From positions 248,001 through 312,000 of the forward strand of contig NZ_JANIGO010000001.1 of the NCBI RefSeq assembly GCF_024518835.1: 64,000 nucleotides of DNA, given 5' to 3'. Shown one piece after another: positions 10,308 to 25,274 of this stretch (positions are counted from its first letter, which is position 1; every line of letters begins with the position of its first letter). This DNA comes from Limnobacter humi (GTDB lineage: Bacteria; Pseudomonadota; Gammaproteobacteria; Burkholderiales; Burkholderiaceae_B). The notes under the pieces are model-generated. The model searched no databases. It was not told the origin of the DNA and worked only from the letters and a program-made list of their open reading frames with translations. A program made the translations under genes and the position numbers.

Positions 10308-10378
10308 ACACCCGGATTGAATCCATTTGGGCAACCGCGGTGTTATAACTGCATCACCGCCGAACCTCGCAGTTGCTC

Positions 10379-11734
10379 ATGGCCTCAACGCTACCGAAAA
10401 CCCTGGTGCTGTTCAACTATGATTGGGACCGAACAGCCACCCAAGCCATCGGCCATCGCTGGCCGCATGTGAATGCAGGCTTTGACCTGTTCAGTTTTCC
10501 CAGTAATGCCCGGCTGGCCTGGTTCAACATGAACCGGTTTTGTGACCTGATGGCCTGGAAGGCACGACTGCACAAAGCCGCCGGGGTCATGTCCAACCAT
10601 GAGCAGTTTGGTGCCCTGTGCGCGGCCCTGCTGGCTGAAAAAATGGGCTGGCCAGGTACACCCGTGTCGGCTGTGCTGGCCTGCCAGCACAAATTGTATG
10701 CGCGCCAGGTGTTGGATGAAGTGGCACCCGAGGCCAATACACCTTACCAACGGCTGGATGCACAGTATGGCGGCCCAGTGCCTGCGGGGCTGCAGTACCC
10801 CGCCTACGTCAAACCCGTGAAGGCCGCATTTTCCGTGCTGGCCGCCGAGGTGGGCGATGAGGCCACCCTGCACAAACACACCCGCTTCAGTGCCTGGGAG
10901 CTGTGGGTCATTCGCCACCTGGTGGAGCCATTTGAAGCGATTGTTCGGGAACGTTTGCCCCAAGCGGGCACCGCCCACAGCCTGATGCTGGAAAAGCCAG
11001 TGAAAGCCCGGCAATACTGCCTGGACGGCTATGTGTTCAACGGCAAACTCAAAACCCTGGGGGTCGTCGATGCGGTCATGTACCCGGGTACCGACGCCTT
11101 CATGCGGTTTGATTTCCCCAGCCGCTTGAATGCCCGAGCCCAGGAACGCGCTGCCGACATTGCCCGACGGTTTCTGCATCGCGTGGGCTTTAACCACGGC
11201 CTGTTCAACATGGAGTTTTTTCATGATGAGCACACCGACACCATCACGGTGATTGAATTCAATCCGCGCATGGCAGCCCAGTTTTCAGACTTGTACGCCC
11301 GCGTGCTCGGAATCAACCTGCACGACATCGCATTTGCACTGGCGCACGGCATGGACCCCGGCTTGATGCAACGGACAGAACCCACCGCCGGCACGGCCAG
11401 CAGCTTTGTATACCGCAGCTTTGACCCGGCAGCCAGGCCAGCCATGCCAACGGCTGATCAGCGGCAGGCGGTTCAACGCGCGTTTCCGGACAGCCTGCTG
11501 TTTGAATTCCCCAAGGATGCCGCCGAAATTGCCCGGGATTTTAAATGGCTGCGCAGCTACCGCTACGGCATTTTGCATGTGGGGGGGGTGGATGCTTTGG
11601 ACTTGAAACTGCGCTGTGAAAAAGCCAGCGCCATGCTGGGTTGGCCAGCACCCTACGCGGGCGATTTGAGCGAGGCGGAACTATTGGACCCCCTGTTCAA
11701 CGGCACATTTGAAATGGAACTTGCCACCGGTTGA
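10379..11734 (+). CDS. ATP-grasp domain carboxylate ligase-like protein, substrate unknown
   Basis: A 451-residue protein with an ATP-grasp fold. Evidence is the nucleotide-binding Lys region (YVKPVKAAFSVLA, about 140-155), the MLEKPVKARQYCLDG strand and the metal-binding pair NMEFF ... VIEFNPRMA (about 280-300), where Glu and Asn bind Mg2+. Such enzymes activate a carboxylate as acyl-phosphate and ligate it to an amine or thiol. The acceptor cannot be read from sequence. I chose ATG 10379; an in-frame TTG lies 6 bp upstream. It is followed by the YHS lipoprotein gene after 38 bp on the same strand. Confidence 0.75.
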   Translation: MASTLPKTLVLFNYDWDRTATQAIGHRWPHVNAGFDLFSFPSNARLAWFNMNRFCDLMAWKARLHKAAGVMSNHEQFGALCAALLAEKMGWPGTPVSAVLACQHKLYARQVLDEVAPEANTPYQRLDAQYGGPVPAGLQYPAYVKPVKAAFSVLAAEVGDEATLHKHTRFSAWELWVIRHLVEPFEAIVRERLPQAGTAHSLMLEKPVKARQYCLDGYVFNGKLKTLGVVDAVMYPGTDAFMRFDFPSRLNARAQERAADIARRFLHRVGFNHGLFNMEFFHDEHTDTITVIEFNPRMAAQFSDLYARVLGINLHDIAFALAHGMDPGLMQRTEPTAGTASSFVYRSFDPAARPAMPTADQRQAVQRAFPDSLLFEFPKDAAEIARDFKWLRSYRYGILHVGGVDALDLKLRCEKASAMLGWPAPYAGDLSEAELLDPLFNGTFEMELATG

Positions 11735-11772: not shown

Positions 11773-12369
11773 ATGAAGCGCACCATTCAAGCCCTGGCCC
11801 TGGCCACCGTTGTCTACACCCTGGCAGGCTGCTCAGCCATGCAGGCCCAAAACCCAGGAGAAGGGCTGGGCCCTGTAAACGCCGTGGCCGTGGAGCAATC
11901 GCCCCGCGTGATGCTGGGCGGCGCCGACGTGGTGGCCTACCAGACAGAGAACCGCTATCAACCGGGATTACCGCAGTTCACTTCGCAATACAAAGGCGTG
12001 GACTTTTACTTTGCGACCATGGAACACAAGGCCCGCTTTGACGGCAATCCGGAACAATACATTCCGCAGTATGGCGGTTATTGCGCCAATGGCATTTCAT
12101 TTGCCATACCGTGGGGTGGCAACGCCACCGACTTTCTGGTGAAGAATGGCAAGACCTACATCTTCGGTGGAGAAATGTCGCAGAAGGCTTTCATGCTCGA
12201 CCTCGACAAAAACATCGCATTGGCCGATGAATATTGGCGCACCGAAGTGGAAGGCCACAACAGCTTTTTGCAACGCGCCAAGCGCTTGGTGTTCCGTGTG
12301 CCGCACTACAAAACCGGGGCCGAGCAAGCCCGTGAAGTGGAAGCTGCCACACCCAAATCAGCGGGATGA
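11773..12369 (+). CDS. YHS domain-containing lipoprotein
   Basis: A 198-residue exported protein. The signal peptide ends in a lipobox (TLAGC, Cys at about 19), so it should be lipid-anchored. Residues 45-110 form a YHS-type domain: VMLGGADVVAYQ, then YKGVDFYFATMEHKARFDGNPEQYIPQYGGYCANG, cited here as adjacent segments. YHS domains are thought to bind metals, through Cys and His residues. The start has an AGGA ribosome binding site. Its last 12 bp overlap the convergent permease gene. Function beyond a possible metal role is unknown. Confidence 0.85.
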   Translation: MKRTIQALALATVVYTLAGCSAMQAQNPGEGLGPVNAVAVEQSPRVMLGGADVVAYQTENRYQPGLPQFTSQYKGVDFYFATMEHKARFDGNPEQYIPQYGGYCANGISFAIPWGGNATDFLVKNGKTYIFGGEMSQKAFMLDLDKNIALADEYWRTEVEGHNSFLQRAKRLVFRVPHYKTGAEQAREVEAATPKSAG

Positions 12370-13194
12370 ACGCACCCTGAACCAGTAGCTGAGAAAATCG
12401 ACCAGCGCCACCAGCAGCATCATGGCGAGCAACACGGTGCTGGTCTCGTGCATTTGGAACAAGCCCATGTGGTAAGCCAACATTTGGCCCAACCCCCCGG
12501 CACCCACAACACCGAGGATGGCGGCTGCACGAATGTTGTTCTCCCAGCGGTACAGGGTGTAGCTGATGAGCTGCGGCAATACAGTGGGCAAGGTCGCGTA
12601 CCAGAACACCGCCACTGGCCCAACGCCCCGAGCCCGCAGGGCAAAAGCGGCGTGGTCTGGGGCATTCTCGATGGTCTCGGCAAACAAACGCCCCAGCACG
12701 CCCGTGGTGTGCAACGCCAGGGCCATGGTGCCGGCAAAAGGCCCCAAGCCCAAGGCAATCAACATGAGCGCAGCCCACACCAGCTCGGGCACGCTGCGCA
12801 GTGAATTCAACACCGCTCGGCTGGCACCGCGGGCCACATACACCCCTTGATCATTGCTTCGGCCACGTGTTTTGCTGGCTGGCAAAGCCCACACCAGGCC
12901 AAACACGGCCGCAATCAAAGTGCCCAAGGCTGACATGGCCAGGGTTTCCAATGTGGCCAGCGCCACCTTGCGAACAAAGGCGGGCTCCCAATTCGGAGAC
13001 AGCAATTCGTTGACAAACTTCAACATGCGACCGGCTGCGTCGATCGAGAAGAACTGTCGCCACTGCAAATCCAGGCTGATAAAACTGGCGGCAATCAATA
13101 CCCCAATGGACAACACCACCCAACAGGATTTGCACCGGGCATCAAACATGGGTTTGGGAATGTTCACTTGAACAGGATTGTGGTTTGGGCTCAT
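12358..13194 (-). CDS. PhnE-like ABC transporter permease, second copy
   Basis: Inner-membrane permease of 278 residues, last gene of a four-gene importer. Around six hydrophobic segments are visible; the cytoplasmic coupling region has SVPELVWAALMLIALGLGPFAG and GENNIRAAAILG-like sequence (RWENNIRAAAILGVVGAGG) as in PhnE. The start ATG (13194) is preceded by GAGGATCACGCC. It pairs with the similar permease at 13221-14054 to make a heterodimeric channel. Context with selenium genes suggests it carries a selenium oxyanion and not phosphonate; this rests on association, not on residues. Confidence 0.85.
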   Translation of the reverse strand: MSPNHNPVQVNIPKPMFDARCKSCWVVLSIGVLIAASFISLDLQWRQFFSIDAAGRMLKFVNELLSPNWEPAFVRKVALATLETLAMSALGTLIAAVFGLVWALPASKTRGRSNDQGVYVARGASRAVLNSLRSVPELVWAALMLIALGLGPFAGTMALALHTTGVLGRLFAETIENAPDHAAFALRARGVGPVAVFWYATLPTVLPQLISYTLYRWENNIRAAAILGVVGAGGLGQMLAYHMGLFQMHETSTVLLAMMLLVALVDFLSYWFRVRSSR

Positions 13195-13220
13195 GGCGTG
13201 ATCCTCATTCGATTCACTGT

Positions 13221-14054
13221 TTAGGCCAGCACACTGCGCAACCAGGTGCTGACCCGGTCGGCCAGCCACACCAACAACACAAACACCAAGAGCATGGTGC
13301 TGACCTCACCACCGGCGAACATCTTCATGGACGAGTCCAGCTGTTGACCAAGCCCACCAGCCCCGACAAACCCCAGAACGGCAGACGAACGAATGGCACA
13401 TTCCCAGCGGTACACGGTGTAACTGGCCAGTTCGCCGGCATTCTGTGGCAAAGCCCCATAGAAAAAAGCCTGTAGACGGCCACTGCCGTTTTGCAGCAGA
13501 TTTTGGGGCACATGGGGATCGCCCGATTCCAGAATGTCGGCATACACCTTGCCCAGCATACCGCCATAGGTGAGCGCAATCGCCAACACACCTGAGGTGG
13601 GGCCCAAACCCACCACCCGAACAAACACCAGCGCCCAAATCAATTCAGGCACACTGCGCAGCACAATGGCCACCCACCGCACACACTGACGCAGTGCTGA
13701 AGGCAGCCAGCCCATTCGGCCCGGAATGGCCGAGACCGACAACACCCGAACCGACAACAGCGCGATGGGCACCGCCAACAACCACGCCAACGCCAAGCCC
13801 GCAGTGGCGATGGCCACGGTGCGCCAGCTTTCGCGCAGCACCATCTTCAAAAACTCGGGCTCCACCTTGGGAGGCACCATGTCCTTGAGAAAATTCAGGG
13901 TGGGTTTGAGATTTTCTTCGGCCAGCAATACCCAGGGCTTGAACTCGGTGCTGACCAGCATGGGCCACAGCAGCACCAGGCCGGCCAGGGTCCAAAACAC
14001 CCGTGGCCACCAGGCGGGATCTTGCAAACGGGGATGATCAAGGGTGCTGCGCAT
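13221..14054 (-). CDS. PhnE-like ABC transporter permease, first copy
   Basis: Inner-membrane permease of 277 residues. It shares SVPELIWALVFVRVVGLGP and RWECAIRSSAVLGFVGAGG with its neighbour, the conserved coupling loops of the PhnE family. A long periplasmic stretch (about 40-80) follows the first helix. The ATG at 14054 has GAAGG seven bases upstream and begins 10 bp after the ATPase stop. The four genes 15761 to 12358 form one operon in the order binding protein, ATPase, permease, permease. Confidence 0.85.
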   Translation of the reverse strand: MRSTLDHPRLQDPAWWPRVFWTLAGLVLLWPMLVSTEFKPWVLLAEENLKPTLNFLKDMVPPKVEPEFLKMVLRESWRTVAIATAGLALAWLLAVPIALLSVRVLSVSAIPGRMGWLPSALRQCVRWVAIVLRSVPELIWALVFVRVVGLGPTSGVLAIALTYGGMLGKVYADILESGDPHVPQNLLQNGSGRLQAFFYGALPQNAGELASYTVYRWECAIRSSAVLGFVGAGGLGQQLDSSMKMFAGGEVSTMLLVFVLLVWLADRVSTWLRSVLA

Positions 14055-14064
14055 GGTCGACCCT

Positions 14065-14895
14065 TCAGCGGCAGTGCATGGGCACTGGGGCTGGCTTGGC
14101 ATCGGGCGCAACAAACTCGGGCGCCGGGCCAGTCAGCTCATCCAGATGCTGGGCGTAGAGGTCTGTCAACACACCAGGCGTTACTGCAGCGGCCGGCAGA
14201 TCGAACACCAAACGGCCATCGCGCAAACCCACCACGCGGGGAAAATGCTTCAGGGCCATGTCCACCTGGTGCAAGGTACACACCAGGGTGGCCTGGCTTT
14301 GCTGCGCAAAACCGGTGAGGGTTTGCATGGCCTGCTCGGCCCGTACGGGGTCGAGTGCGCTCAAGGGCTCGTCCACCAACAACAGGCTGGCCCCAGAAAC
14401 CAAGCCACGCGCCAAACCGACGCGTTGGCGTTCGCCGCCCGACAAACGATCCACACGGTCAAACAGTTTTTCAGCGAGATCGAATTCGGACAGGGCCTGT
14501 TGGGCCAAAGCGGCATCACTTGGATAAAACAGACTGCGCAAGCTTTGCCACAACCCCATCTGCGGAACACGCCCTGCCAACACGGCGGTAACCACACGTT
14601 GGCGTGGTGGCAGTGGAGGCACTTGCGGGGCCAAAAACAGGGACTGCCTCAGGCGCTTGAGCTGCGCCTTGGGCACCTGCCAGGGGTTTTGGCCACCGAG
14701 CTGCACAGTTCCCGCCTGCGGCTTGAGTGCGCAGGCCAACACATGCAGCAGCGTGGTTTTACCGGCACCCGATGGACCAATCACCGCCACCTGTTCGCCG
14801 GCTTCAATGGCCAAAGAAACCCCCTGCAAAGCCAGGGGGCTTTGGTCGCTGGCCGCCGGGTGGCGGCCAGCGCAGTGCTGCATCACGACATTCAC
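14065..14895 (-). CDS. PhnC-like ABC transporter ATP-binding protein
   Basis: Cytoplasmic ATPase of 276 residues that powers the importer. Walker A is GPSGAGKTT (about 40-48), the signature is LSGGERQRVGLARGLV (about 150) and Walker B is LLLVDEPLSALDP. The reading frame starts with GTG at 14895, overlapping the binding-protein stop as GTGA with AGGA eight bases upstream; an ATG at 14883 is an alternative. The closest family is phosphonate PhnC, but the neighbours argue for a selenium anion. Confidence 0.87.
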   Translation of the reverse strand: MNVVMQHCAGRHPAASDQSPLALQGVSLAIEAGEQVAVIGPSGAGKTTLLHVLACALKPQAGTVQLGGQNPWQVPKAQLKRLRQSLFLAPQVPPLPPRQRVVTAVLAGRVPQMGLWQSLRSLFYPSDAALAQQALSEFDLAEKLFDRVDRLSGGERQRVGLARGLVSGASLLLVDEPLSALDPVRAEQAMQTLTGFAQQSQATLVCTLHQVDMALKHFPRVVGLRDGRLVFDLPAAAVTPGVLTDLYAQHLDELTGPAPEFVAPDAKPAPVPMHCR

Positions 14896-15761
14896 TTCAA
14901 CAATCCTGCGGAGCGGGCGGCTTTCTCAATACCCACATAATTGTCAGCCTTGGTGGGAATGAACTTGGAAGCGCGTTGCAGTTCCAGAATTTCCTTGCCT
15001 TCCGGTGTGTTTTTGTCCAGCGCCAGGAAAGCATCGACCAGCTTTTTGCGCACCTCCGGTGACACACTGCTGTTCACGGTCCAGTTGTAGTCGTAATACT
15101 CCGGGGTGGTGTAAATCACGCGTACCTTGTTGGTATCAACCTTCTTTTCTTCGACAAATTTCTGCCACACGGAAATGTTCAGTGCACCTGCATCCACTTT
15201 GCCAGCCGCAACGGCAGCAATGGTGGCATCGTGCGCACCACTGAATGACACTCGTTTGAAATCTTTGTCTGGGTCCAGCTTGCTGACTTCCTGCAAGAAA
15301 TAGCGGGGCATGAGGTGGCCCGAGGTGCTGGAAGCAGAACCGAAGGAGACCGTTTTGCCTTTCAGGTCCGCCAGGGTTTTGATGTCCGGGTCGGTGGTGA
15401 TGAATACCGATTTGAATTTTTCGTCTTCAGCGCGCTGCACCAGGGGAATGACCTGGCCGTTGGAACGCACCTTGGCCTGCACAAAGGTGAAGCCGCCAAA
15501 CCAGGCCATGTCCACCTGCTTGTTGGCAATGGCTTCAACCGACGCGGCATAGTCGGTGACCGGGGTGTACTCCACTTTCATGCCCAGTTTGTCGGACAGG
15601 TACTTCATCAAAGGTGCAGCTTTGCGTGCCAGCTCGGTGGGCGACTCGTCCGGAATGGCGGTTACACGAAACACCTGTTCAGCATGACTTAAACCGGCCA
15701 ATCCGATCATGGCGCAAGTCATCAATACTTTGAATGTGCGGGATGGTGAAAAACTGATCAT
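14892..15761 (-). CDS. Periplasmic substrate-binding protein of a putative selenate/selenium ABC importer
   Basis: PhnD-like binding protein of 289 residues. A signal peptide (MISFSPSRTFKVLMTCAM...) is cut near SHA-EQVF. The mature part has FRVTAIPDESPTELARKAAP, TPVTDYAASVEAIANKQVD, MAWFGGFTFVQAK, SFGSASSTSGHLMPRY and FSGAHDATIAAVAAGKVDAG, as I recall them from the PhnD subfamily annotated as putative selenate binding proteins. The start is set by a clear AAGGAG box before ATG 15761. It is divergent from egtD and lies within 8 kb of senA, senB and selD, which supports selenium over phosphonate. Substrate is not proven. Confidence 0.8.
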   Translation of the reverse strand: MISFSPSRTFKVLMTCAMIGLAGLSHAEQVFRVTAIPDESPTELARKAAPLMKYLSDKLGMKVEYTPVTDYAASVEAIANKQVDMAWFGGFTFVQAKVRSNGQVIPLVQRAEDEKFKSVFITTDPDIKTLADLKGKTVSFGSASSTSGHLMPRYFLQEVSKLDPDKDFKRVSFSGAHDATIAAVAAGKVDAGALNISVWQKFVEEKKVDTNKVRVIYTTPEYYDYNWTVNSSVSPEVRKKLVDAFLALDKNTPEGKEILELQRASKFIPTKADNYVGIEKAARSAGLLK

Positions 15762-15870
15762 GAATCGCTCCTTGATTGAGTAGGCCTGCAACAACACCGG
15801 CCAACCGAGTATAGAACCGATTTTGCGGCACAATGGATGCACTTTGTAACTGCAATAAGTATTTTTTGCC
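15762..15870. promoter_or_regulatory. Divergent promoter region between the selenium importer and egtD
   Basis: This 109-bp gap must hold promoters for both directions. On the minus strand TATACT (15813-15808) is a good -10 for the importer operon, although no well-spaced -35 is clear. On the plus strand TTGCGG and TGTAAC, 16 bp apart, lie about 25-50 bp before egtD. A shared control region would let importer and hercynine synthesis respond together. Confidence 0.4.
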
Positions 15871-16842
15871 ATGAAGCACACGCCCCGATTCATTCAGCGC
15901 CACCACAGCAACGCCCTGCAAATTCGGGCGGAGTTGCTTCAAGGTCTCCATGCACCGATTGCGCACACCTCGCCCAAATACCTCTACGATGAGTTGGGCT
16001 CCAAACTGTTTGAAGCCATCACCTGCATTCCGGAGTATTACCCCACCCGCGTGGAGGCCAGTATTTTTCGGGCACAAGCCGATGCACTGGCCAAGCTTGT
16101 ACCCAAGCAGGCCAGCCTGATTGACCTGGGGGCCGGCAATTGCCAGAAAGCAGCCAATCTCTTTGCGGTTTTTGAACCAGCAAGGTATGTGGCTGTGGAC
16201 ATTTCGGTGGAGTTTCTCAGGGGTGCGCTGGAATGCCTCCAGCGTCAATTTCCAGACATGGACATGGTGGGTGTGGGGCTGGATTTTTCCGAACACCTGC
16301 AGTTGCCAGACGCGCTGGGCTTGCACCCGAACGACCCGCGGGTGCTGTTTTACCCGGGTTCCAGCATCGGAAACTTCACACCCAATGAGGCCCTGGCTTT
16401 TTTAAAACAGGTACACGCCTGCTGCGCGGTCAACCCAGAGGGTGGCTTGCTGATCGGGGTGGACCTGGTGAAAGATGCGCGGGTTTTACAGGCAGCCTAT
16501 GATGATGAATTGGGCGTGACCGCTGCGTTCAACCGCAACCTGCTCTTGCACCTGAACACGCTGATCGGCAGCAATTTCAAACTGGCCGACTGGGCCCATG
16601 TGGGCCTCTACAACACCGAGTTGAATCGCATCGAAATGCACCTGGAGGCGGTTCGTGATGTGGTAGTGACCTGGCCAGAAGGCAGCCGCCACTTCGCGGC
16701 AGGCGAGCGCATTCACACCGAGAACTCATACAAGTGGACAATAGACGCTTTCACGGCCTTGCTGCATGACGCTGGCTTTGGACAAGCCACGGTGCTCACC
16801 GACCCCCAACACCAGTTTGCGGTGTGTTGGGCGCCGGTGTAG
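15871..16842 (+). CDS. egtD: L-histidine N-alpha-methyltransferase EgtD
   Basis: SAM-dependent enzyme of 323 residues that trimethylates histidine to hercynine, the shared precursor of ergothioneine and selenoneine. Family landmarks: SPKYLYDELGSKLFEAI (about 34-50), CIPEYYPTRVE, SAM motif LIDLGAGNCQKA (about 85), FYPGSSIGNFTP (about 165) and LIGVDLVKDARVLQAAYDD. ENSYKW near the C-terminus holds residues of the His-binding pocket. Length matches the family. It converges with the methyltransferase gene, 4 bp away. With senA and senB nearby, hercynine is probably meant for selenoneine. Confidence 0.94.
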   Translation: MKHTPRFIQRHHSNALQIRAELLQGLHAPIAHTSPKYLYDELGSKLFEAITCIPEYYPTRVEASIFRAQADALAKLVPKQASLIDLGAGNCQKAANLFAVFEPARYVAVDISVEFLRGALECLQRQFPDMDMVGVGLDFSEHLQLPDALGLHPNDPRVLFYPGSSIGNFTPNEALAFLKQVHACCAVNPEGGLLIGVDLVKDARVLQAAYDDELGVTAAFNRNLLLHLNTLIGSNFKLADWAHVGLYNTELNRIEMHLEAVRDVVVTWPEGSRHFAAGERIHTENSYKWTIDAFTALLHDAGFGQATVLTDPQHQFAVCWAPV

Positions 16843-16846
16843 GGGC

Positions 16847-18022
16847 CTAGACGGCAGGTTCCAGCACAAACAGCGAGGTCACTTCCTGTTTGCGGGCCTG
16901 GTGCAACGGGTCGGATGGGTCCAGCGACTTGCTGTGCACCGGTCGGGTGTGCGTGACATGAACCACCCGCAGACCCGCCTGCGCAATCCAGTGCTGAAGC
17001 TCACCAGGTTTGCGCAACCCCAAATGTTCAGCAAGGTCAGACATCACCAGCCACGCCTCACCACCGGGCTTGAGGTGGGCCTTCACGCCATTCAAATAGC
17101 CCTTGAGCATGGCACTGTTGTCGTCGTAAATGGCTCGCTCAATTGCAGCCACCGGTTTGGCGGGCAGCCACGGCGGGTTGCACACCAGCAAGTCAGCCTG
17201 TCCGGATGGAAACAGGTCTGCCTGCACCACCGACACCTGCGCCTGCACACCGAGCTGCTGCACGTTGAAGGTTGCGCAGTCCAGCGCGCGGGGATCCAGC
17301 TCGGTGGCCAGGATGCGCGGTACCCCCCGGCGGGCCAGCAATGCGGCAATGACCGCTGTGCCGGTGCCAATGTCAAAAGCCAGGGCGTCGGGCCTGGAAA
17401 AGCGTTTCACATCCGCCTTGGCCAGCAGGTTGAGGTACTCACCGCGCACCGGTGAATACACCCCATAAAACGGAAACACCCGGTTGTTGGGTGCGGCGCC
17501 CAAGGCAGCAATTTCGACACCTTTTTTCCGCCATTCAAAAGCCCCAATCAAACCCAGCAATTCACGCAGAGAAATGCAGGCCAAGCCCTGCCAATTCAAG
17601 ATTCCCCAGGCGGCCTGAAGCGCCTCATGCACCTCGGGCGCACGGCGCAAAGGCACGGTGAAATCTGCATTCAAAGGCACCAGAATGGAATTCAACACCC
17701 GCGCGCGTTGAGCCTGGCTTTGTCGATGCAAATGAAATGCATGGGCCGCGGTCACCTCGGGCTTGGCTTTTTTGGAACCCTTGCGCTTGTCGACCCGGCG
17801 CGCCAACGCCGACATCAATTGCTTGGCGTTTTGAAAATCACCCCGGTACAGCAACACCGCACCTTGCATGATTTCCCGATAGGCCATGTCAGCCGTGAAG
17901 GTGTCGTCGGCCAGCAGCACCTGTTTGGGTGCAGACACCAGTCGCTCGGTCATCCACTGGGTGGTGTAGTGGTCTGCCCCCTCACTCCAGGTCAGTGCAT
18001 GTCGGTGTAATTCAATGGCCAT
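16847..18022 (-). CDS. Class I SAM-dependent methyltransferase with NPPW motif, co-directional with senA
   Basis: A 391-residue protein with an N-terminal part of about 190 residues of unknown fold and a C-terminal methyltransferase domain. The SAM site is AFDIGTGTAVIAALLA (about 215-230), ATELDPRAL follows, and LLVCNPPWLPAKP (about 280) has the NPPW catalytic motif used for methylating planar nitrogen atoms of bases or Gln side chains. The gene follows senA directly: an in-frame TTG at 18043 overlaps the senA stop, while I chose ATG 18022 with AAGGA ten bases upstream. No step for it exists in the published selenoneine route. RNA or protein methylation is the main alternative. Confidence 0.75.
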   Translation of the reverse strand: MAIELHRHALTWSEGADHYTTQWMTERLVSAPKQVLLADDTFTADMAYREIMQGAVLLYRGDFQNAKQLMSALARRVDKRKGSKKAKPEVTAAHAFHLHRQSQAQRARVLNSILVPLNADFTVPLRRAPEVHEALQAAWGILNWQGLACISLRELLGLIGAFEWRKKGVEIAALGAAPNNRVFPFYGVYSPVRGEYLNLLAKADVKRFSRPDALAFDIGTGTAVIAALLARRGVPRILATELDPRALDCATFNVQQLGVQAQVSVVQADLFPSGQADLLVCNPPWLPAKPVAAIERAIYDDNSAMLKGYLNGVKAHLKPGGEAWLVMSDLAEHLGLRKPGELQHWIAQAGLRVVHVTHTRPVHSKSLDPSDPLHQARKQEVTSLFVLEPAV

Positions 18023-18039
18023 CTCGGCGAAGTCCTTGT

Positions 18040-19284
18040 TCAAACGGTTGCACAGGTTCTAAAACCGGCAAAAATATCGGTTCGGTTGGGGGTGAAGTAA
18101 TTGCGGTATTTGGGGTGCCGCATGGTGAGCGATGTGGCCATGCAGGCGCCTTTAAGCACGGTGCGGGTGCCAAACCACGGAGCTGAATAGTCCGCATAGG
18201 GGTGGGGTACAAAGCCTGGAAAGGGAACAAAAGACGACACTGTCCATTCCCAAACTTCGCCCCACGCCAGGCCCGGTTCGATGTGGACGGCATACTCCCA
18301 TTGTGCCTCGGTGGGCAACTGACGACCTGCCCACGCGCAGTAAGCCAAGGCGTCGGCCTGACCGAGGTGCACAGCCGCCGCGCTCAGGCTCACTGGGTGA
18401 GCCTGTCCACCGCGTTGTTCGAGCAACTGCCCGCCCTGCCATTGAAAACGTGCAGGCAAGGCATGCCCGGTGGCCTCAACAAACGCCAGATACTGGTCCC
18501 AACTCACGGGGTGTGAATCCACTTCAAAGGCTGGCAGGCTGATGCTGTAAGACGGCAGCTCATTGTCAAAGGCAAAGCCGTCGCCTTGCCAGCCCAGCAT
18601 CCACTGGCCAGCCGGGATAGACAGCGGGCCAGCCACCGGGTCCGAAAACACCCACGGTGATGGATGCGCATGGCTAGGCTGCAGTGGAATGTCCAACTGA
18701 CGGGCCATGTACACCGCCGCTTCATTGTGCATTTGCTCATGAAACAGAACCAGCCTGAAAAAATACAGCACGGAATCCTGTTCGGCCGGGCTCAAGCCCT
18801 GCGCCCGAATCAGGGCTTCCACCCGGGCCAGCTCCTGCAAGGTTAACTGCAGGGTATCGAACAGATAGCCCTGGATGGCTGACAAATCACCCACCGCCAA
18901 TGCCCAACGGGTGTCGTGGGCCACCAGGCTGCTGTTGAACAGGGCGTCGGCATGGTCCAGCACAGCAGGCTTGCGAGCATGCAAGGGGTTACAGTGCACA
19001 CCCTTGAGCAATTCAACATTCCGCGCGACCCACCACTCCTGAAACCAGGCGATGTGACCAGCTTCCCACAGGGGTGGGTTCAAGCCGCTGTCCAGTGGTA
19101 CCTGCAACCCTTCACCCAGGGCCTTGGCATAGTCATGGAGCAAGCCGAGGGTGCGCACGCGGGTTTCCACCAACCGAATGGCCAGGTCGGACGGGCCCGC
19201 GCAGCGGGCGTTCTGTGCCGCTTGCCAACGCGAGCTCGTGTACACTGGCGGGGCTGTATCTGGACTCAAATTGGGTGTGTGCAT
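18040..19284 (-). CDS. senA: Selenoneine synthase SenA (EgtB-like)
   Basis: Non-heme iron enzyme of 414 residues that forms the C-Se bond between hercynine and a selenosugar. The DinB-like N-terminal domain carries the iron ligands: His77 in GHIAWFQEW, and His182 and His186 in HEQMHNE, which is the HX3HXE motif. The C-terminal formylglycine-generating-enzyme-like domain has GEVWEWTVSSF and LKGACMATS ... RNYFTPNRTDIFAGFRT (segments shortened). Sequence and context fit SenA better than ergothioneine EgtB: a senB-type gene is head to head with it and a SelD fusion follows that. ATG 19284 shares bases with the senB start. Confidence 0.87.
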   Translation of the reverse strand: MHTPNLSPDTAPPVYTSSRWQAAQNARCAGPSDLAIRLVETRVRTLGLLHDYAKALGEGLQVPLDSGLNPPLWEAGHIAWFQEWWVARNVELLKGVHCNPLHARKPAVLDHADALFNSSLVAHDTRWALAVGDLSAIQGYLFDTLQLTLQELARVEALIRAQGLSPAEQDSVLYFFRLVLFHEQMHNEAAVYMARQLDIPLQPSHAHPSPWVFSDPVAGPLSIPAGQWMLGWQGDGFAFDNELPSYSISLPAFEVDSHPVSWDQYLAFVEATGHALPARFQWQGGQLLEQRGGQAHPVSLSAAAVHLGQADALAYCAWAGRQLPTEAQWEYAVHIEPGLAWGEVWEWTVSSFVPFPGFVPHPYADYSAPWFGTRTVLKGACMATSLTMRHPKYRNYFTPNRTDIFAGFRTCATV

Positions 19285-20311
19285 GACCTTGGCCAACAAA
19301 TCTTCTGTGGTGATTGTAAGCCCAGCGCTGGCCGATTCGAACAATGGCAACTGGCAAACCGCGCGTCGCTGGCAAAAGCTGCTTCAAAGTCACTACCGGG
19401 TGCGGGTCATCAAACAATGGCCAGACCACGCCAATGCACCAGACGAAGACTGCTTGATGCTGGCCCTGCACGCCCGCCGTTCGGCATCGTCGATTGCTGC
19501 GTGGGCCAAGCACCGGCACAGCACCGCACAAACACCCGGCCTGGTGGTGGCCCTGACCGGGACCGACCTGTACAAAGACCTGCCGGACAATGCTGACGCG
19601 CAGCAATCCCTTCAGTTGGCCAGCCAACTGATTGTGTTGCAGGACGAGGCATTGAACTCCGTACCCGCCCAACATCGCCACAAAACCCATGCTGTTTTTC
19701 AGTCCACCACCAGCCGGCCCACACTGGACAAAACCCGGCGGCACCTGCATGCGATTGCCGTTGGCCACCTGCGTGCGGAGAAACAACCCGACACACTGAT
19801 GGATGCGGCTGCACTGCTGGCCGGACAGCCTGGCATTTACCTGACGCATGTGGGCGCTGCCCTTGAAACCGCTTATGCCAACCAGGCACAACAGACCATG
19901 GCCATGAATCCGAATTACCGGTGGCTGGGGGCTTTGGCGCACGAACTGACCCGAAAGCGCATCCAACGAGCCCACTTGCTGGTTCATATGAGCAAAATGG
20001 AAGGCGGTGCCCACGTGGTGATGGAGGCCGTGACCAGCGGGACACCCGTGCTGGCCTCAAACATGGAGGGCAATGTGGGCATGCTGGGGCGGGATTATGC
20101 GGGTTACTTTGAGGTGGGCAATTCGGCACAATTGGCGCGCCTGCTGCAAACAGCCCAAGCCGATGTTCGAGCTGGCTGCCCAGCCGGCAGCCTGATGCAC
20201 ACCTTGCGGCGGCAATGTGCCGCCAGGGCCCGACTGTTTACTGCCAGCGCCGAACAAACCGCGCTGTTGAACCTGATCGATCTGGAGTTGAAAACCCATG
20301 CGCAGCACTGA
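19283..20311 (+). CDS. senB: Selenosugar synthase SenB (glycosyltransferase-like)
   Basis: Cytoplasmic GT-B-like enzyme of 342 residues that makes a selenosugar from selenophosphate and a UDP-sugar. Diagnostic stretches are VIVSPALADSNNGNWQTARR (about 10-29), LALHARRSASSIAAW, LVVALTGTDLYKDL, AVGHLRAEKQPDTL and MSKMEGGAHVVMEAV, followed by GTPVLASNMEGNVG, all typical of SenB. The ATG at 19283 lies in the same CATG as the senA start; a GTG eight codons in (about 19307) is an alternative. Its end overlaps the selD fusion by 14 bp, so the two are co-translated. Confidence 0.87.
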   Translation: MTLANKSSVVIVSPALADSNNGNWQTARRWQKLLQSHYRVRVIKQWPDHANAPDEDCLMLALHARRSASSIAAWAKHRHSTAQTPGLVVALTGTDLYKDLPDNADAQQSLQLASQLIVLQDEALNSVPAQHRHKTHAVFQSTTSRPTLDKTRRHLHAIAVGHLRAEKQPDTLMDAAALLAGQPGIYLTHVGAALETAYANQAQQTMAMNPNYRWLGALAHELTRKRIQRAHLLVHMSKMEGGAHVVMEAVTSGTPVLASNMEGNVGMLGRDYAGYFEVGNSAQLARLLQTAQADVRAGCPAGSLMHTLRRQCAARARLFTASAEQTALLNLIDLELKTHAQH

Positions 20312-22592
20312 ACAACCCATTTTGCGTGACATTGTGCTGATTGGCGGCGGCCACAGCCATGTCGGCGTGCTGCGCATGTTTGGCATGAAACCATGGCCCG
20401 GGGTAAGGCTCACCCTCATTTGTACCGATGTGCACACCCCCTACTCGGGCATGCTGCCCGGTTATATTGCTGGCCATTACAGCTATGACGAGGTGCACAT
20501 CGACCTGGGGCGGCTTTGCGCCTTTGCAGGGGCCCGACTGGTGATTGACGAGGTGGTGGGGCTAGACCGCCAGCGCAAGAAAATCATGTGCAAAAGCCGT
20601 CCACCGATTGCATACGATGCCCTGTCCATCAACATCGGATCAACCCCACAAACCCTGACAGTGCCGGGCGCAGCCGAGTGGGCTGTGCCGGTCAAACCGA
20701 TTGCACAGTTCAATCAAAAATGGCTGGCCTTGCTGGACCGGGTGAAATCCCACGAGGGCGCAGACACCATTGCTGTGGTGGGTGGCGGTGCAGGCGGGGT
20801 TGAGCTGACTCTGGCCATGCAGCACCGGTTGCGGGCGGAGCTGAGAACCCTCGGCCGCAACCCAGATGACTTGACGTTCAACCTGCTGACTGCAAGCCCC
20901 TGCATTCTGCCCACGCACAATCCAACCGTTCGCGCCAAATTCGAGGCGGTGTTGCAAGAGCGCGGTGTTCACGTGCACTGCAACGCTGAAGTCACTGAAC
21001 TGCGCCCCCATGGCTCGCGCAAAACCTTGGTCACCGACACGGGCCAGGAACTGGCCGTCGATGAGGTCATGTGGGTAACACAGGCCGGAGGGCCAGCCTG
21101 GTTGAAAAGCACTGGGCTTGAGCTGACCGAACAGGGTTTTATTCGCGTGGGCCCCACCCTGCAAACCTTGAACGACCCAGATATTTTCGCCGCGGGTGAC
21201 ATTGCGCACTTTGAAGCCAGCCCATTGGAGAAAGCGGGCGTTTTTGCAGTGCGCATGGGCAAGCCCCTGGTAAACAACCTGCAGAACTGGGTTGAAGGTG
21301 CGCGGCTGGACGACTATCAACCGCAACGGACCTGGCTGGCCCTGATCAGCACAGGCGACCAGTTCGCAGTTGCCTCCAAGGGCGCGATCGGATTTTGGGG
21401 CGCCTGGGTGTGGCGCTGGAAAGACTGGATTGATCGCCGCTTCATGGCCAAATTCAATGACTTCCCCGACATGTCGGCCACACCACCGACAGCCGCATCG
21501 TCGCCACAAGTGGCACTGAGTCAGGAGGAATCCCTGCAAGCCATCTCAGCGATTGCGATGCGCTGTGGCGGCTGCGGGGCCAAAGTGGGTAGCACAGTGC
21601 TGAGTCGGGCTTTGGGCGCGCTGCGGCCTGTGGAACGGGCCGATGTGCTGGTGGGTCTGCATGCCCCCGATGATGCCGCCATTGTGAAAGTACCGCCCGG
21701 CAAGGCCATGGTGCACACGGTGGATTTCTTTCGTGCATTCGTGGATGACCCCTATGTGTTTGGCCGCATTGCCGCCAACCATGCACTGGGCGACATCTTT
21801 GCCATGGGTGGTGAAGCACAGTCTGCCACTGCCGTGGTGACGGTACCACCGGGCCTGGAAGCCAAGGTCGAAGAGTTGCTGTTTCAAATGATGTCGGGTG
21901 CTGTTGATGTGCTCAACGACGCTGGCTGTGCCCTGGTGGGCGGCCACACTGGCGAGGGCAAGGAACTGGCCCTGGGCTTTGCCATCAACGGACTGGTGGA
22001 TGAAAACCTACAGGGCGTGATGATCAAGGGGGGTATGAAACCTGGCGATGCCATTGTGCTCACCAAGCCGATTGGCACAGGCACCCTGTTTGCTGCCCTG
22101 CCCCAGCTGAAGACCAAGGGCCGGTGGATCGCCAGTGCGTTGCAATCCATGATGGTGTCCAACCGCCTGGGGGCTGAATGCCTGCGCAAGCACGGGTCCA
22201 AAGCCTGTACGGACCTCACCGGGTTTGGTCTGCTGGGCCATTTGGTGGAAATGACCAAACCGTCTGAAGTGGATGCCGAGCTGTTTCTGGACCAACTGCC
22301 GCTGTTGGACGGTGCGCTTGAAACCGTGAAAGCCGGTATCGTGAGTTCACTGCAACCCGCCAATGTGCGCCTGCGCCGGGCCATTCGAAACCAGGCCGCT
22401 TTTGTGGATGACCCTCGCTACCCCTTGTTGTTTGACCCGCAAACGGCGGGCGGCTTGCTGGCCACGGTGCCGGCAGACCAGGTGGACGCCTGCGTGACCG
22501 AATTGAAAGCGCTGGGCTATGTCAACACCCGCATCATCGGCCGAGTGATGGCCCAAAGCGATGCATTGGAACCGGTTGTTCTGAAGGGTTGA
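20298..22592 (+). CDS. selD: FAD-dependent NADH dehydrogenase-like domain fused to selenophosphate synthetase (SenC-equivalent)
   Basis: A two-domain protein of 764 residues. Residues 1-390 are a pyridine-nucleotide disulfide oxidoreductase of the NDH-2 type: FAD motif VLIGGGHSHVGVL, NAD motif AVVGGGAGGVELTLA and DIFAAGDIAHFE. Residues about 415-764 are SelD, which makes selenophosphate from selenide and ATP: MRCGGCGAKVGSTVL has the catalytic Cys (about 424) and Lys (about 427), then APDDAAIV, HTVDFFRAFVDDPY, ALGDIFAMGG and GGHTGEGKELALG. The N-terminal domain may reduce selenium to selenide for the synthetase, which is inference. It overlaps senB by 14 bp and fills the role of SenC here. Confidence 0.92.
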   Translation: MRSTEQPILRDIVLIGGGHSHVGVLRMFGMKPWPGVRLTLICTDVHTPYSGMLPGYIAGHYSYDEVHIDLGRLCAFAGARLVIDEVVGLDRQRKKIMCKSRPPIAYDALSINIGSTPQTLTVPGAAEWAVPVKPIAQFNQKWLALLDRVKSHEGADTIAVVGGGAGGVELTLAMQHRLRAELRTLGRNPDDLTFNLLTASPCILPTHNPTVRAKFEAVLQERGVHVHCNAEVTELRPHGSRKTLVTDTGQELAVDEVMWVTQAGGPAWLKSTGLELTEQGFIRVGPTLQTLNDPDIFAAGDIAHFEASPLEKAGVFAVRMGKPLVNNLQNWVEGARLDDYQPQRTWLALISTGDQFAVASKGAIGFWGAWVWRWKDWIDRRFMAKFNDFPDMSATPPTAASSPQVALSQEESLQAISAIAMRCGGCGAKVGSTVLSRALGALRPVERADVLVGLHAPDDAAIVKVPPGKAMVHTVDFFRAFVDDPYVFGRIAANHALGDIFAMGGEAQSATAVVTVPPGLEAKVEELLFQMMSGAVDVLNDAGCALVGGHTGEGKELALGFAINGLVDENLQGVMIKGGMKPGDAIVLTKPIGTGTLFAALPQLKTKGRWIASALQSMMVSNRLGAECLRKHGSKACTDLTGFGLLGHLVEMTKPSEVDAELFLDQLPLLDGALETVKAGIVSSLQPANVRLRRAIRNQAAFVDDPRYPLLFDPQTAGGLLATVPADQVDACVTELKALGYVNTRIIGRVMAQSDALEPVVLKG

Positions 22593-22599
22593 TGCATTG

Positions 22600-23217
22600 A
22601 TGGACACCGGGATATTGCTGGAATGGGCTCACTGGTTGAGCCTGTGGTTTGAATCCCACCCCTGGCAGGCTGCGCTGGCCTACACCACGGTGTTCACGGC
22701 CATCACCGCATTGTGCTTGCCGGGTGCCGCGGTGCTGATGGTGCTGGGCAGCCTGTGCATGGGGTCAAACCTTTGTTTTGGTTTGTCCCTGACCGCCTCA
22801 ACATTGGGTGCATGGCTCACGTTTCTGGCGTGTCGCCACTGGTTGAAACCGGTGATGGTGCAGCGCCATGCGCAACGCCTGAACCGCTTTTCAGCAGCCA
22901 TCCACCGACATGAGGCGGCCACCCTGCTGAGTTTGAGATTGGCGCCTGCCATTCCTTTTGTTCTGTTCAACGTGCTGTGCGGACTGGGCAACACCCGCTC
23001 CGCCACTTTTTTATGGACCAGTATCGTGGGCATGGCCCCGGGCACCTGGCTGTATGTCAAAGCAGGCCATGAATTGGGGCAACTCACCGGCTGGCAGGAC
23101 GCCCTTGCCCCCGAACTCCTACTGACCTTGCTGGCCTTGGCCTTGATGCCCTGGTTGGGTGTGTGGCTGAACAAACGGCTGCAATTGACCCGCACGGGTG
23201 GACACCCAACTGTTTGA
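22600..23217 (+). CDS. TVP38/TMEM64 (DedA-superfamily) membrane protein
   Basis: Inner-membrane protein of 205 residues, 7 bp after selD on the same strand. It has about five hydrophobic segments (for example ALAYTTVFTAITALCLPGAA and LGSLCMGSNLCFGLSLTAS), and the family region LSLRLAPAIPFVLFNVLCGL with TSIVGMAPGTWLYV. Members are thought to move lipids or small molecules across the bilayer; none is well defined. Its position suggests a link to selenium metabolism, perhaps transport of selenite or selenide. Confidence 0.82.
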   Translation: MDTGILLEWAHWLSLWFESHPWQAALAYTTVFTAITALCLPGAAVLMVLGSLCMGSNLCFGLSLTASTLGAWLTFLACRHWLKPVMVQRHAQRLNRFSAAIHRHEAATLLSLRLAPAIPFVLFNVLCGLGNTRSATFLWTSIVGMAPGTWLYVKAGHELGQLTGWQDALAPELLLTLLALALMPWLGVWLNKRLQLTRTGGHPTV

Positions 23218-23282
23218 TGGGATTGCACTGACCAATCGGCAACACTTCCGTGCATGACCTGACGACTGACCGGAGTGTTTCC

Positions 23283-25274
23283 ATGCCTTTCACCCTGCCC
23301 AAAGCCCTGAACAGTTGGCGCCTGCAATCCAAGTTTGTGCTGATTGCAGCGCCATGCGCGCTGGCAGTGGCCACCCTGTTTGGATTGTTGATCAACGAAC
23401 AGATGAAGCTGGTCAACACCACCCGCGAGGAGCTTGCTGGCGTTGCATTGGTTCCGCAGTGGTATGCGCTGCAAAACAGCCTTCAAGATCACCGTGAAAG
23501 CATTCAACTCAACAGCATGGGCGCAGTAAGCCAACATGCCGCAGGCGACACTGCTGTGGCTGTTGACCAGGCCTTGCAAGCATTGTTAGCGGCCATGCCA
23601 ACGGACTGGGCAGAGACCCCAAAACGATTGGACGCACTGAAAACCCGATGGAAGTCACGCCAGACCGGTGAGAATGCACAGGCTTTTCAGGACCTCAGCG
23701 CGCTGCTCAGCGATGAAATGGGCTTGATTCGATGGTCCGCCGATGACAGCACCATGACATTCGACCCCGAGGTATCCACCTATTACCTCATCAGCGCGCT
23801 GAATTTTGATTTGCCCCAATTGCATGAGCAGGTAGACCTGGTGCGCAGCCGCATGGTGAACCTGATTGGCCGCGGCGAAGCTGACGACGTCTTGGCTGGC
23901 GAAATTGGCGCCCGCATGTTGATGATTCGTCAACTGGGTTCAAACCTGGTGCTTTCGTTTCAAAAGGTGGAATCGGCTGGCGTGCCGCTGGATGCCAAAT
24001 TGCGTGAACAGCTCAAGGACTATCCAGCTCGCGAAACGGCACTGCACACGCTGGCGGGCTCCATCAACCAAGCACTGGGTGCCAGCACCATGGCGTCAAT
24101 CAACCAGCAGGTTCAACCCCTGCAAAGCCTGCTGGACGAAGTGGCGGTGCAGAGCAGCACCTTGCTGAGGCAGGCACTGCAGCAGCGCATCGAGCGTTTG
24201 CAAAAAAACATTGCCATGGAGCTCGGATTGGCGGCCCTCATCTGCTCCATGGCTTTGACACTGGCGTTGGCTGTGTTCAGGAAAGTGAATCGAGATGTGG
24301 CCTGTGTGCTGACCCAAAGCCAACGGCTCTCCGCATTCAATCTGGTGAACAGCCCTGTTTTGCAGCAGCACGATGAGCTGGGACAGATTTCCGCTGCCAT
24401 TGAAACCGTTCGGCATTCCCAGGCAACAGCGATTGCCAACATTTCAGCGCTGACAACCCAGTTGAATGACAACACACGGACACTGGAAAACACGACAGGT
24501 CATATTCACCAGAATGCGGCAGACCAAGCCGACTCCTCTGCCAGTGTGGCCAGCTCCATCGAGGAGCTCAGCGTGTCGGTTGGGCAAGTGGCTGAGCATG
24601 CGGAAGCGGCCAAACACCTGGCCAACCAAACCGGGGAATCATCACGACACGGACTGCACACCGTGGGTGCAGCACGCCAGGCCATGCAAGGCATTGGCGA
24701 ATCCACCAGCCTGCTGGCCCAAGACATGGACCGCCTGGGTGAGCGCACCGATCGAATTTCCATCATCGTACAAACCATCCATGACATCGCAGAGCAAACC
24801 AACCTGCTGGCCTTGAATGCGGCAATTGAAGCGGCTCGGGCTGGCGAACAGGGGCGAGGCTTTGCGGTGGTGGCCGACGAGGTGCGCAAATTGTCGGAGC
24901 GCACAGCACAGGCCACACAGGATATTTCCAGCCTGGTTGAAAGCATTCAGTCGGAAACGCTGGCTGCCGTGAACAAAGTCAAAGGCTGGAATAACGAGAT
25001 AGCCGATGGCATGGCCAAATCGGACCAAGCCGAGCAGGCCATGCAGGGTATCAATTCACAATCGCTACAGGCCTGCGAATCAGTGATGGAAATTCACGCC
25101 GCCTTAGCGGAGCAAACCGTGGCCTCTCAAACCATTGCACGACAGATTGAACGCATTGCGCAAGGCACGGAAGAGGCACAAACGGCAGTGGCCGCATTGA
25201 CGCAGGTGGCCAGCGAAGTCAATGGACTGTCAACCCACCTGAACAGGCTGGTGGGTCAATACCAATTGGGTTGA
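23283..25274 (+). CDS. Methyl-accepting chemotaxis protein
   Basis: Chemoreceptor of 663 residues. The first transmembrane helix ([20 protein letters not shown], about 15-35) precedes a long periplasmic sensor domain (about 36-320) of unknown ligand, a second helix ([19 protein letters not shown]), a HAMP-like stretch and the signalling hairpin: [40 protein letters not shown] and [12 protein letters not shown]. No CheW-binding pentapeptide tail is present. The start ATG has GGAG eight bases upstream; an upstream GTG is less likely. No che genes lie in this window, so it is an isolated receptor gene. Confidence 0.93.

Follow-up and report, generated by a model that had tools for sequence, protein, structure and literature searches.

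The window, a 64,000-nucleotide stretch of the Limnobacter humi genome (G000; 3.24 Mb in 29 contigs), carries a set of closely packed genes. From left to right, these encode an ATP-grasp ligase-like protein and a YHS-domain protein on the forward strand; the two permeases, the ATPase, and the substrate-binding protein (SBP) of an ABC importer on the reverse strand (phnE2, phnE1, phnC, SBP); EgtD on the forward strand; a methyltransferase and SenA on the reverse strand; and SenB, an oxidoreductase-SelD fusion, and a TVP38-type membrane protein on the forward strand. All ten genes that the initial annotation had named between 12358 and 23217 are present as open frames and were identified by NCBIfam and Pfam profile searches, and the locus is probably larger than first noted, with a left boundary at 10373 that takes in the ATP-grasp and YHS-domain genes. 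Consecutive importer genes overlap by 49, 50, and 4 bases, the methyltransferase gene and senA by 4 bases, and senB and the oxidoreductase-SelD gene by 14 bases. The ATG codons of senA (19284, reverse) and senB (19283, forward) overlap head to head as CATG (window 19270-19300), leaving no intergenic promoter space; the starts of these two genes, like that of the SBP, are the ones we chose as likely. The same locus is found in a genome of the same genus (G003), and the same gene order in a Limnobacter litoralis record (L094). A methyl-accepting chemotaxis protein is encoded after the locus (window 23250-25274), and one 38% identical to it occupies the same place in another record (L038).

The senA gene (18040..19284, reverse strand) encodes a protein that matches the selenoneine synthase model NF041186 with 432 bits, only just above the cut-off of 420. 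This model alone does not separate SenA from the selenoxide synthase OvsA, because an OvsA relative from the same genome also passes it (434 bits), and database “SenA” labels that rest on NF041186 may therefore be OvsA. In the EgtB model TIGR03440, the window protein reaches 162 bits against a cut-off of 360, placing it outside EgtB, and against PDB chains it scores 357 bits with 8k5i, which we take to be the SenA of Variovorax paradoxus, 124-132 bits with OvsA, and 86 bits with EgtB. The iron-binding HX3HXE motif is present as HEQMHNE, and both His residues and the last Glu are invariant across the nine SenA rows of our alignment. In a 51-row tree, the window protein, a Limnobacter copy, two other rows, and the 8k5i SenA form one branch (SH-aLRT 90) within a seven-row branch supported at 99. 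An 86-row tree separates the 82 SenA rows from two OvsA and two EgtB rows (SH-aLRT 99). This tree carried a long-branch warning that included the window SenA, and the exact position of that protein within the SenA clade is unsure. Grouping with EgtB, which the initial annotation had named as the result that would speak against it, was not seen: by PDB scores and in both trees, the protein groups with Variovorax SenA, apart from EgtB and OvsA. Its family membership assigns it the SenA role, in which it would form the C-Se bond between a selenosugar and hercynine.

The second match to the SenA model in this genome (C12:710112) was rejected as a SenA, as it is OvsA-like (573 bits to 8u41); this OvsA relative lies at G000:C12:710112-711398 (L035:9300-10616). 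A 720-aa frame at C12:670502 looks like OvoA, judging from its length and score. Next to the OvsA-like gene of L. litoralis (L039) is one for a methyltransferase of the OvoA C-terminal type (289.5 bits). A single bacterium may make selenoneine, ovoselenol, and ovothiol.

The adjacent senB gene (19283..20311, forward strand) encodes a predicted selenosugar synthase with 409.1 bits in TIGR04348 (cut-off 300) and 333 bits against the PDB entry 8fbx. A Lys is in line with K158, by our own count in the 8fbx alignment and assuming a 20-residue tag, and the EGGAHV motif is kept; the importance of both is described in PMC10891094. Eight genomes have a SenB over the cut-off without an over-cut-off SenA or EgtD (G043, which has the top SenB score, G014, G088, G095, G050, G106, G028, and G069), and the selenosugar may serve another product in them. 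The egtD gene (15871..16842, forward strand) encodes a histidine N-alpha-methyltransferase, the enzyme that makes hercynine, with 352.4 bits in TIGR03438 (cut-off 290.9), and is the single EgtD match in the whole genome. As EgtD is common to both pathways, it would also fit a locus that makes ergothioneine rather than selenoneine. We regard that alternative as very improbable, given that SenA scores so much better in its own model than in that of EgtB and lies outside the EgtB rows in the trees, and that a full SenB, the maker of the selenium donor, is encoded beside it.

To place the remaining genes, we used 80 senA loci from named genomes that were picked by similarity to the window-type SenA and extend at most 10 kb per side; they are not a random sample, and many of them end early at contig ends. 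Among these loci, senB occurs in 77 and egtD in 59. A contig titled as an Akkermansia muciniphila MAG (L163) encodes a SenA that falls among those of Limnohabitans, and this contig is probably misbinned.

The gene at 20298..22592 (forward strand) encodes an FAD oxidoreductase (TIGR03169, 518.5 bits, cut-off 310) fused to SelD (TIGR00476, 291.3 bits, cut-off 125), which would take the SenC role. The SelD domain carries a GGCGAK motif, the Cys and Lys of which we take to be the catalytic residues. The fusion is below the cut-off in two other SelD models (218.6 against 299 bits and 125.1 against 291 bits), and also in TIGR04369, named “fusion_not_SelD” (461.5 against 700 bits). A fused oxidoreductase-SelD is encoded in 37 of the 80 senA loci and a stand-alone SelD in 26, with one or the other in 63. 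A search of the genome with AIRS_C returned four matches, namely the window SelD, one PurM (of which the C-terminal half was tested), and two within a single 1350-aa frame that, from its length, is presumably PurL, so that only one SelD was found in the genome. SelA was not found in the genome search, while MnmH was, and the one SelD found must therefore also supply tRNA selenation. The initial annotation had described a self-contained module from uptake to product. EgtD, the SelD fusion, and the importer do adjoin the sen genes, but a dedicated selenophosphate supply is an overstatement and “self-contained” is too strong, since the only SelD found has to feed MnmH as well. Selenite reduction, SAM, and the UDP-sugar must also be supplied from outside the locus.

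The methyltransferase (16847..18043, reverse strand) is a generic class I enzyme that scores above no NCBIfam cut-off. It had initially been counted as a pathway gene, but none of the 80 senA loci carries a homolog, while homologs at E<=1e-50 occur in 58 of 150 genomes of the order and on 17 plasmid records. In G003, the homolog is on a different contig from senA. We rejected a role in the Se- or N-methylation of selenoneine for this widespread type of enzyme, and it looks like a passenger, although a homolog in G023 that is some 5 kb away from a gene for an EgtB-like protein speaks slightly against this. The TVP38/VTT membrane protein (22597..23217, forward strand; PF09335, 65.2 bits, cut-off 33.9), presumably of the DedA superfamily, begins 4 bases after the SelD fusion and is encoded in 12 of the 80 senA loci; its role in the locus is unsure.

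The importer consists of PhnE-type permease 2 (12358..13269; TIGR01097, 248 bits, cut-off 216.7), PhnE-type permease 1 (13221..14114; 200.3 bits in the same model, below the cut-off, and PF00528), a PhnC-like ATPase (14065..14895; TIGR02315, 195 bits, below the cut-off of 266.1), and the SBP (14892..15761), all on the reverse strand. The SBP has a signal-peptide-like start by eye (ATG at 15761) and matches PF12974 with 250.7 bits and TIGR04553 with 405.6 bits (cut-off 250), a family to which NCBIfam gives the hypothetical name “putative selenate ABC transporter substrate-binding protein”. With an SBP above the cut-off and PhnC and PhnE partners encoded by overlapping operon genes, the transporter belongs to the TIGR04553 type. 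It does not qualify as a phosphonate importer PhnCDE, as the SBP scores 177 bits in PhnD against a cut-off of 261 and the ATPase 195 against 266 in PhnC, with one PhnE above its cut-off. We found no experimental test of a TIGR04553 importer in the literature searched.

In 41 of the 80 loci, the SBP gene lies no more than 10 kb from senA, to the right of it in 38 and to the left in three, and the presence of the SBP requires at least nine changes over the 59 scored rows of the SenA tree. Where senA is flanked by 8 kb of sequence or more to the left as well as to the right (46 loci), the SBP was found in 29, egtD in 35, any SelD in 39, and the ATP-grasp gene in 14. The arrangement also varies. 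In another family of the order (L214, from G076), senA, selD, the SBP gene, phnC, two phnE genes, and egtD follow each other on one strand with small gaps, with senB next on the other strand; the SenA of this locus scores 379 bits, below the model cut-off, yet SenA is its nearest match in the PDB. Elsewhere, the order is senB-selD-SBP-phnC (L216, from G102), the importer stands together with egtD, an EgtB gene (561 bits), and selD (L215, from G113), or it forms an importer-selD-mnmH group in a genome that has EgtD and lacks an over-cut-off SenB (L205, from G058). Across 150 genomes of the order, 32 have an SBP over the cut-off, 46 a SenB, and 21 both (Fisher p 5e-6, uncorrected for kinship), which leaves 11 of the 32 SBP-positive genomes without an over-cut-off SenB. 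The SBP gene is linked to genes for SenA, SenB, EgtD, SelD, or MnmH in seven of the 32 (G000, G003, G049, G058, G076, G102, and G113), nine of the 32 having been judged by the positions of SenA, SenB, and EgtD alone. No homolog of any of these five proteins was found within about 10 kb in 16 of the 20 SBP neighborhoods examined.

The nearest solved relatives of the window SBP are the picocyanobacterial PhnD1 proteins (7s6g and 5lq5). PMC10284923 and PMC5700983 give the phosphate/phosphite ligands of PhnD1 as a Tyr, a Ser-Thr-Ser, a His, an Asp, and a capping Tyr with its two partners. All of these oxyanion-holding residues are kept in the window SBP in our alignment. The Tyr, STS, His, and cap do not vary across 38 sen-linked SBPs, whereas the residues at the positions of Asp11, Asn174, and Asp203 are Glu, Asp, and Asn, respectively, each in 23 of these 38 proteins. 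Such a pocket would suit phosphite too; it is also that of phosphate/phosphite binders, PhnD1 binding phosphate as well. The transporter could thus be an ordinary phosphite/phosphate importer of the PhnD1 or PtxB type that lies beside selenoneine genes by chance, a reading for which the conserved contacts and the 16 neighborhoods without a selenium gene both speak. We nevertheless consider it unlikely. The SBP recurs with senA, selD, and egtD in differing gene orders and accompanies selD-mnmH where no SenB is above the cut-off, it co-occurs with SenB in 21 of the 32 SBP-positive genomes, and it belongs to TIGR04553 rather than PhnD by score. In addition, the alignment has 37 columns with a residue that at least 93% of 39 sen-linked SBPs share and that neither PhnD1 row has, two of these columns being gaps in both PhnD1 rows. 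An importer of ergothioneine or hercynine is also disfavored, because the SBP is of the PF12974 type and reaches just 22.8 bits for PF04069, the type to which the known ergothioneine importer presumably belongs, and because the importer occurs with selD-mnmH in a genome without an over-cut-off SenB, albeit one that has EgtD. The substrate of the TIGR04553 importer is most likely a small selenium oxyanion, with selenite favored over selenate as the closed pocket would suit a three-oxygen (XO3) oxyanion.

At the left end of the locus, the ATP-grasp ligase-like protein (10373..11734, forward strand; 453 aa; PF13535, 28.1 bits, cut-off 27) is a candidate for an extra pathway enzyme. It is followed after 39 bases by the start of the YHS gene (11773..12369, forward strand), a member of the “YHS domain-containing (seleno)protein” family (NF041384, 92.5 bits, cut-off 70), homologs of which (at least 45% identity) occur in 10 of the 80 senA loci. 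ATP-grasp homologs occur in 22 of these loci, on the egtD strand, and lie at most 2 kb from senA in 15 of the 22. In the 150 genomes of the order, full-length homologs (at least 37% identity, one in two pieces) are found in 17, with weak or partial matches in 13 more. All 17 have EgtD over the cut-off together with SenA or SenB over the cut-off; SenB is over the cut-off in 15 of them, and the other two (G147 and G059) have an over-cut-off SenA. No full-length homolog was found in the other 23 genomes of the order that have EgtD and lack SenB. The ATP-grasp gene is on a different contig from senA, senB, and egtD or more than 100 kb away in 13 of the 17, so that linkage does not explain the co-occurrence. 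A 39% identical copy adjoins egtD-senA in another family (L030, from G102), and the linkage must have changed 10 times or more along the SenA tree.

We also considered that the ATP-grasp and YHS genes might be unrelated neighbors with synteny by chance. The same unlinked position in 13 of 17 genomes can be read in this way, as can the lack of an ATP-grasp homolog in 21 of the 36 genomes of the order with both SenB and EgtD, which makes the protein at most accessory. At the class level, moreover, an ATP-grasp match at E<=1e-20 was found in 19 of 369 genomes, with SenB over the cut-off in just seven of the 19 (Fisher p 4e-5, uncorrected for kinship). The link to SenB is weaker there than within the order, and the wider family would have other roles. 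In the 18 of these genomes besides that of the window, a SenA-model match is over the cut-off in six, and any match at E<=1e-10 is present in 14; G411 has a partial ATP-grasp match of 383 bits and no SenB match. We see chance proximity as a possibility of some weight, though a doubtful one, because every genome of the order with a full-length homolog has EgtD and SenA or SenB even when the genes are unlinked, and because the gene recurs beside egtD-senA in another family with repeated changes in linkage. Our reading is that the ATP-grasp and YHS genes probably belong to the locus.

We modeled the ATP-grasp protein with AF2 from 15 sequences (pLDDT 85, pTM 0.87). The best four Foldseek rows are L-amino acid ligases (3vot, 3wo1, and 3vmm) at 11-14% identity, with many other ATP-grasp families close behind, and a sequence search of the PDB returned nothing below E 0.3. 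One speculative idea, to which we give little credence, is that the protein is an undescribed ligase that conjugates hercynine or selenoneine, for example to a selenoneine-amino acid amide. The loci would in that case end in a selenometabolite not described before, and the importer supplying its selenium would be the first in bacteria to be dedicated to selenite. As the amine of both hercynine and selenoneine is trimethylated and unreactive, such a ligase would activate their carboxylate or that of a partner. We found no paper joining “selenoneine” and “ATP-grasp” in the literature searched. If the ATP-grasp gene is part of the pathway, it points to selenium metabolites beyond selenoneine.

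Considering the family membership of each protein together with the recurrent gene linkage, which form the basis of our reading, we think it likely that the window carries a selenoneine biosynthesis and selenium-supply locus. Over-cut-off profiles and gene linkage support the original proposal of such a locus with its own EgtD, SelD fusion, and probable selenium importer, and the importer, which the published senABC set does not include, fits the proposal of genes beyond the minimal cluster. In the pathway that we envision, the TIGR04553 PhnCDE-type transporter would import selenium as a small oxyanion, selenite being the most likely one, and cellular reductants, perhaps aided by the oxidoreductase domain, would reduce it to selenide. 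The SelD domain would convert selenide to selenophosphate, SenB would move the selenium onto a UDP-sugar, and EgtD would produce hercynine. The iron enzyme SenA would then link the selenosugar with hercynine by way of a selenoxide, the breakdown of which would yield selenoneine. The TVP38, YHS, and ATP-grasp proteins may have roles in this pathway as well. The chemistry of SenA, SenB, and SenC has been published for V. paradoxus (PMC9814287 and PMC10891094), as has the selenoxide intermediate (PMC10903977). The authors of a 2024 study state that, to their knowledge, there was so far no specific selenium transporter (PMC11097638). The importer described here is a concrete candidate for one, with neighboring genes that suggest its purpose.

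Compared with the sen cluster described before, the locus is an enlarged version, and its core pathway is already known. It shares homologs of SenA, SenB, and SelD/SenC with the senABC cluster of V. paradoxus, reportedly described by Kayrouz et al. in 2022, with SenA in the same clade and the catalytic motif of SenB kept, but these genes have further neighbors here, namely egtD, the TIGR04553 importer, the oxidoreductase part of the SelD fusion, and the genes for the TVP38, YHS, and ATP-grasp proteins. The selenoxide synthase OvsA (8u41) is a related enzyme with a close relative elsewhere in the same genome, whereas the window SenA has 124-132 bits to OvsA chains against 357 to SenA. The ATP-grasp protein has its best four Foldseek matches in L-amino acid ligases (3vot; BacD/YwfE, 3vmm and 3wo1), but at just 11-14% identity. 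The importer SBP is of the same family as the phosphite-phosphate binders PhnD1 and PtxB (7s6g, 5lq5, and 5o2j) and keeps the Tyr, STS, His, Asp, and capping Tyr of PhnD1, but it falls below the PhnD cut-off and is linked to selenium genes. It is a clear member of TIGR04553, scoring 405.6 bits where the cut-off is 250. The NCBIfam name of this family is hypothetical; we find the family connected with selenoneine and selD-mnmH loci, and its pocket argues for a three-oxygen oxyanion.
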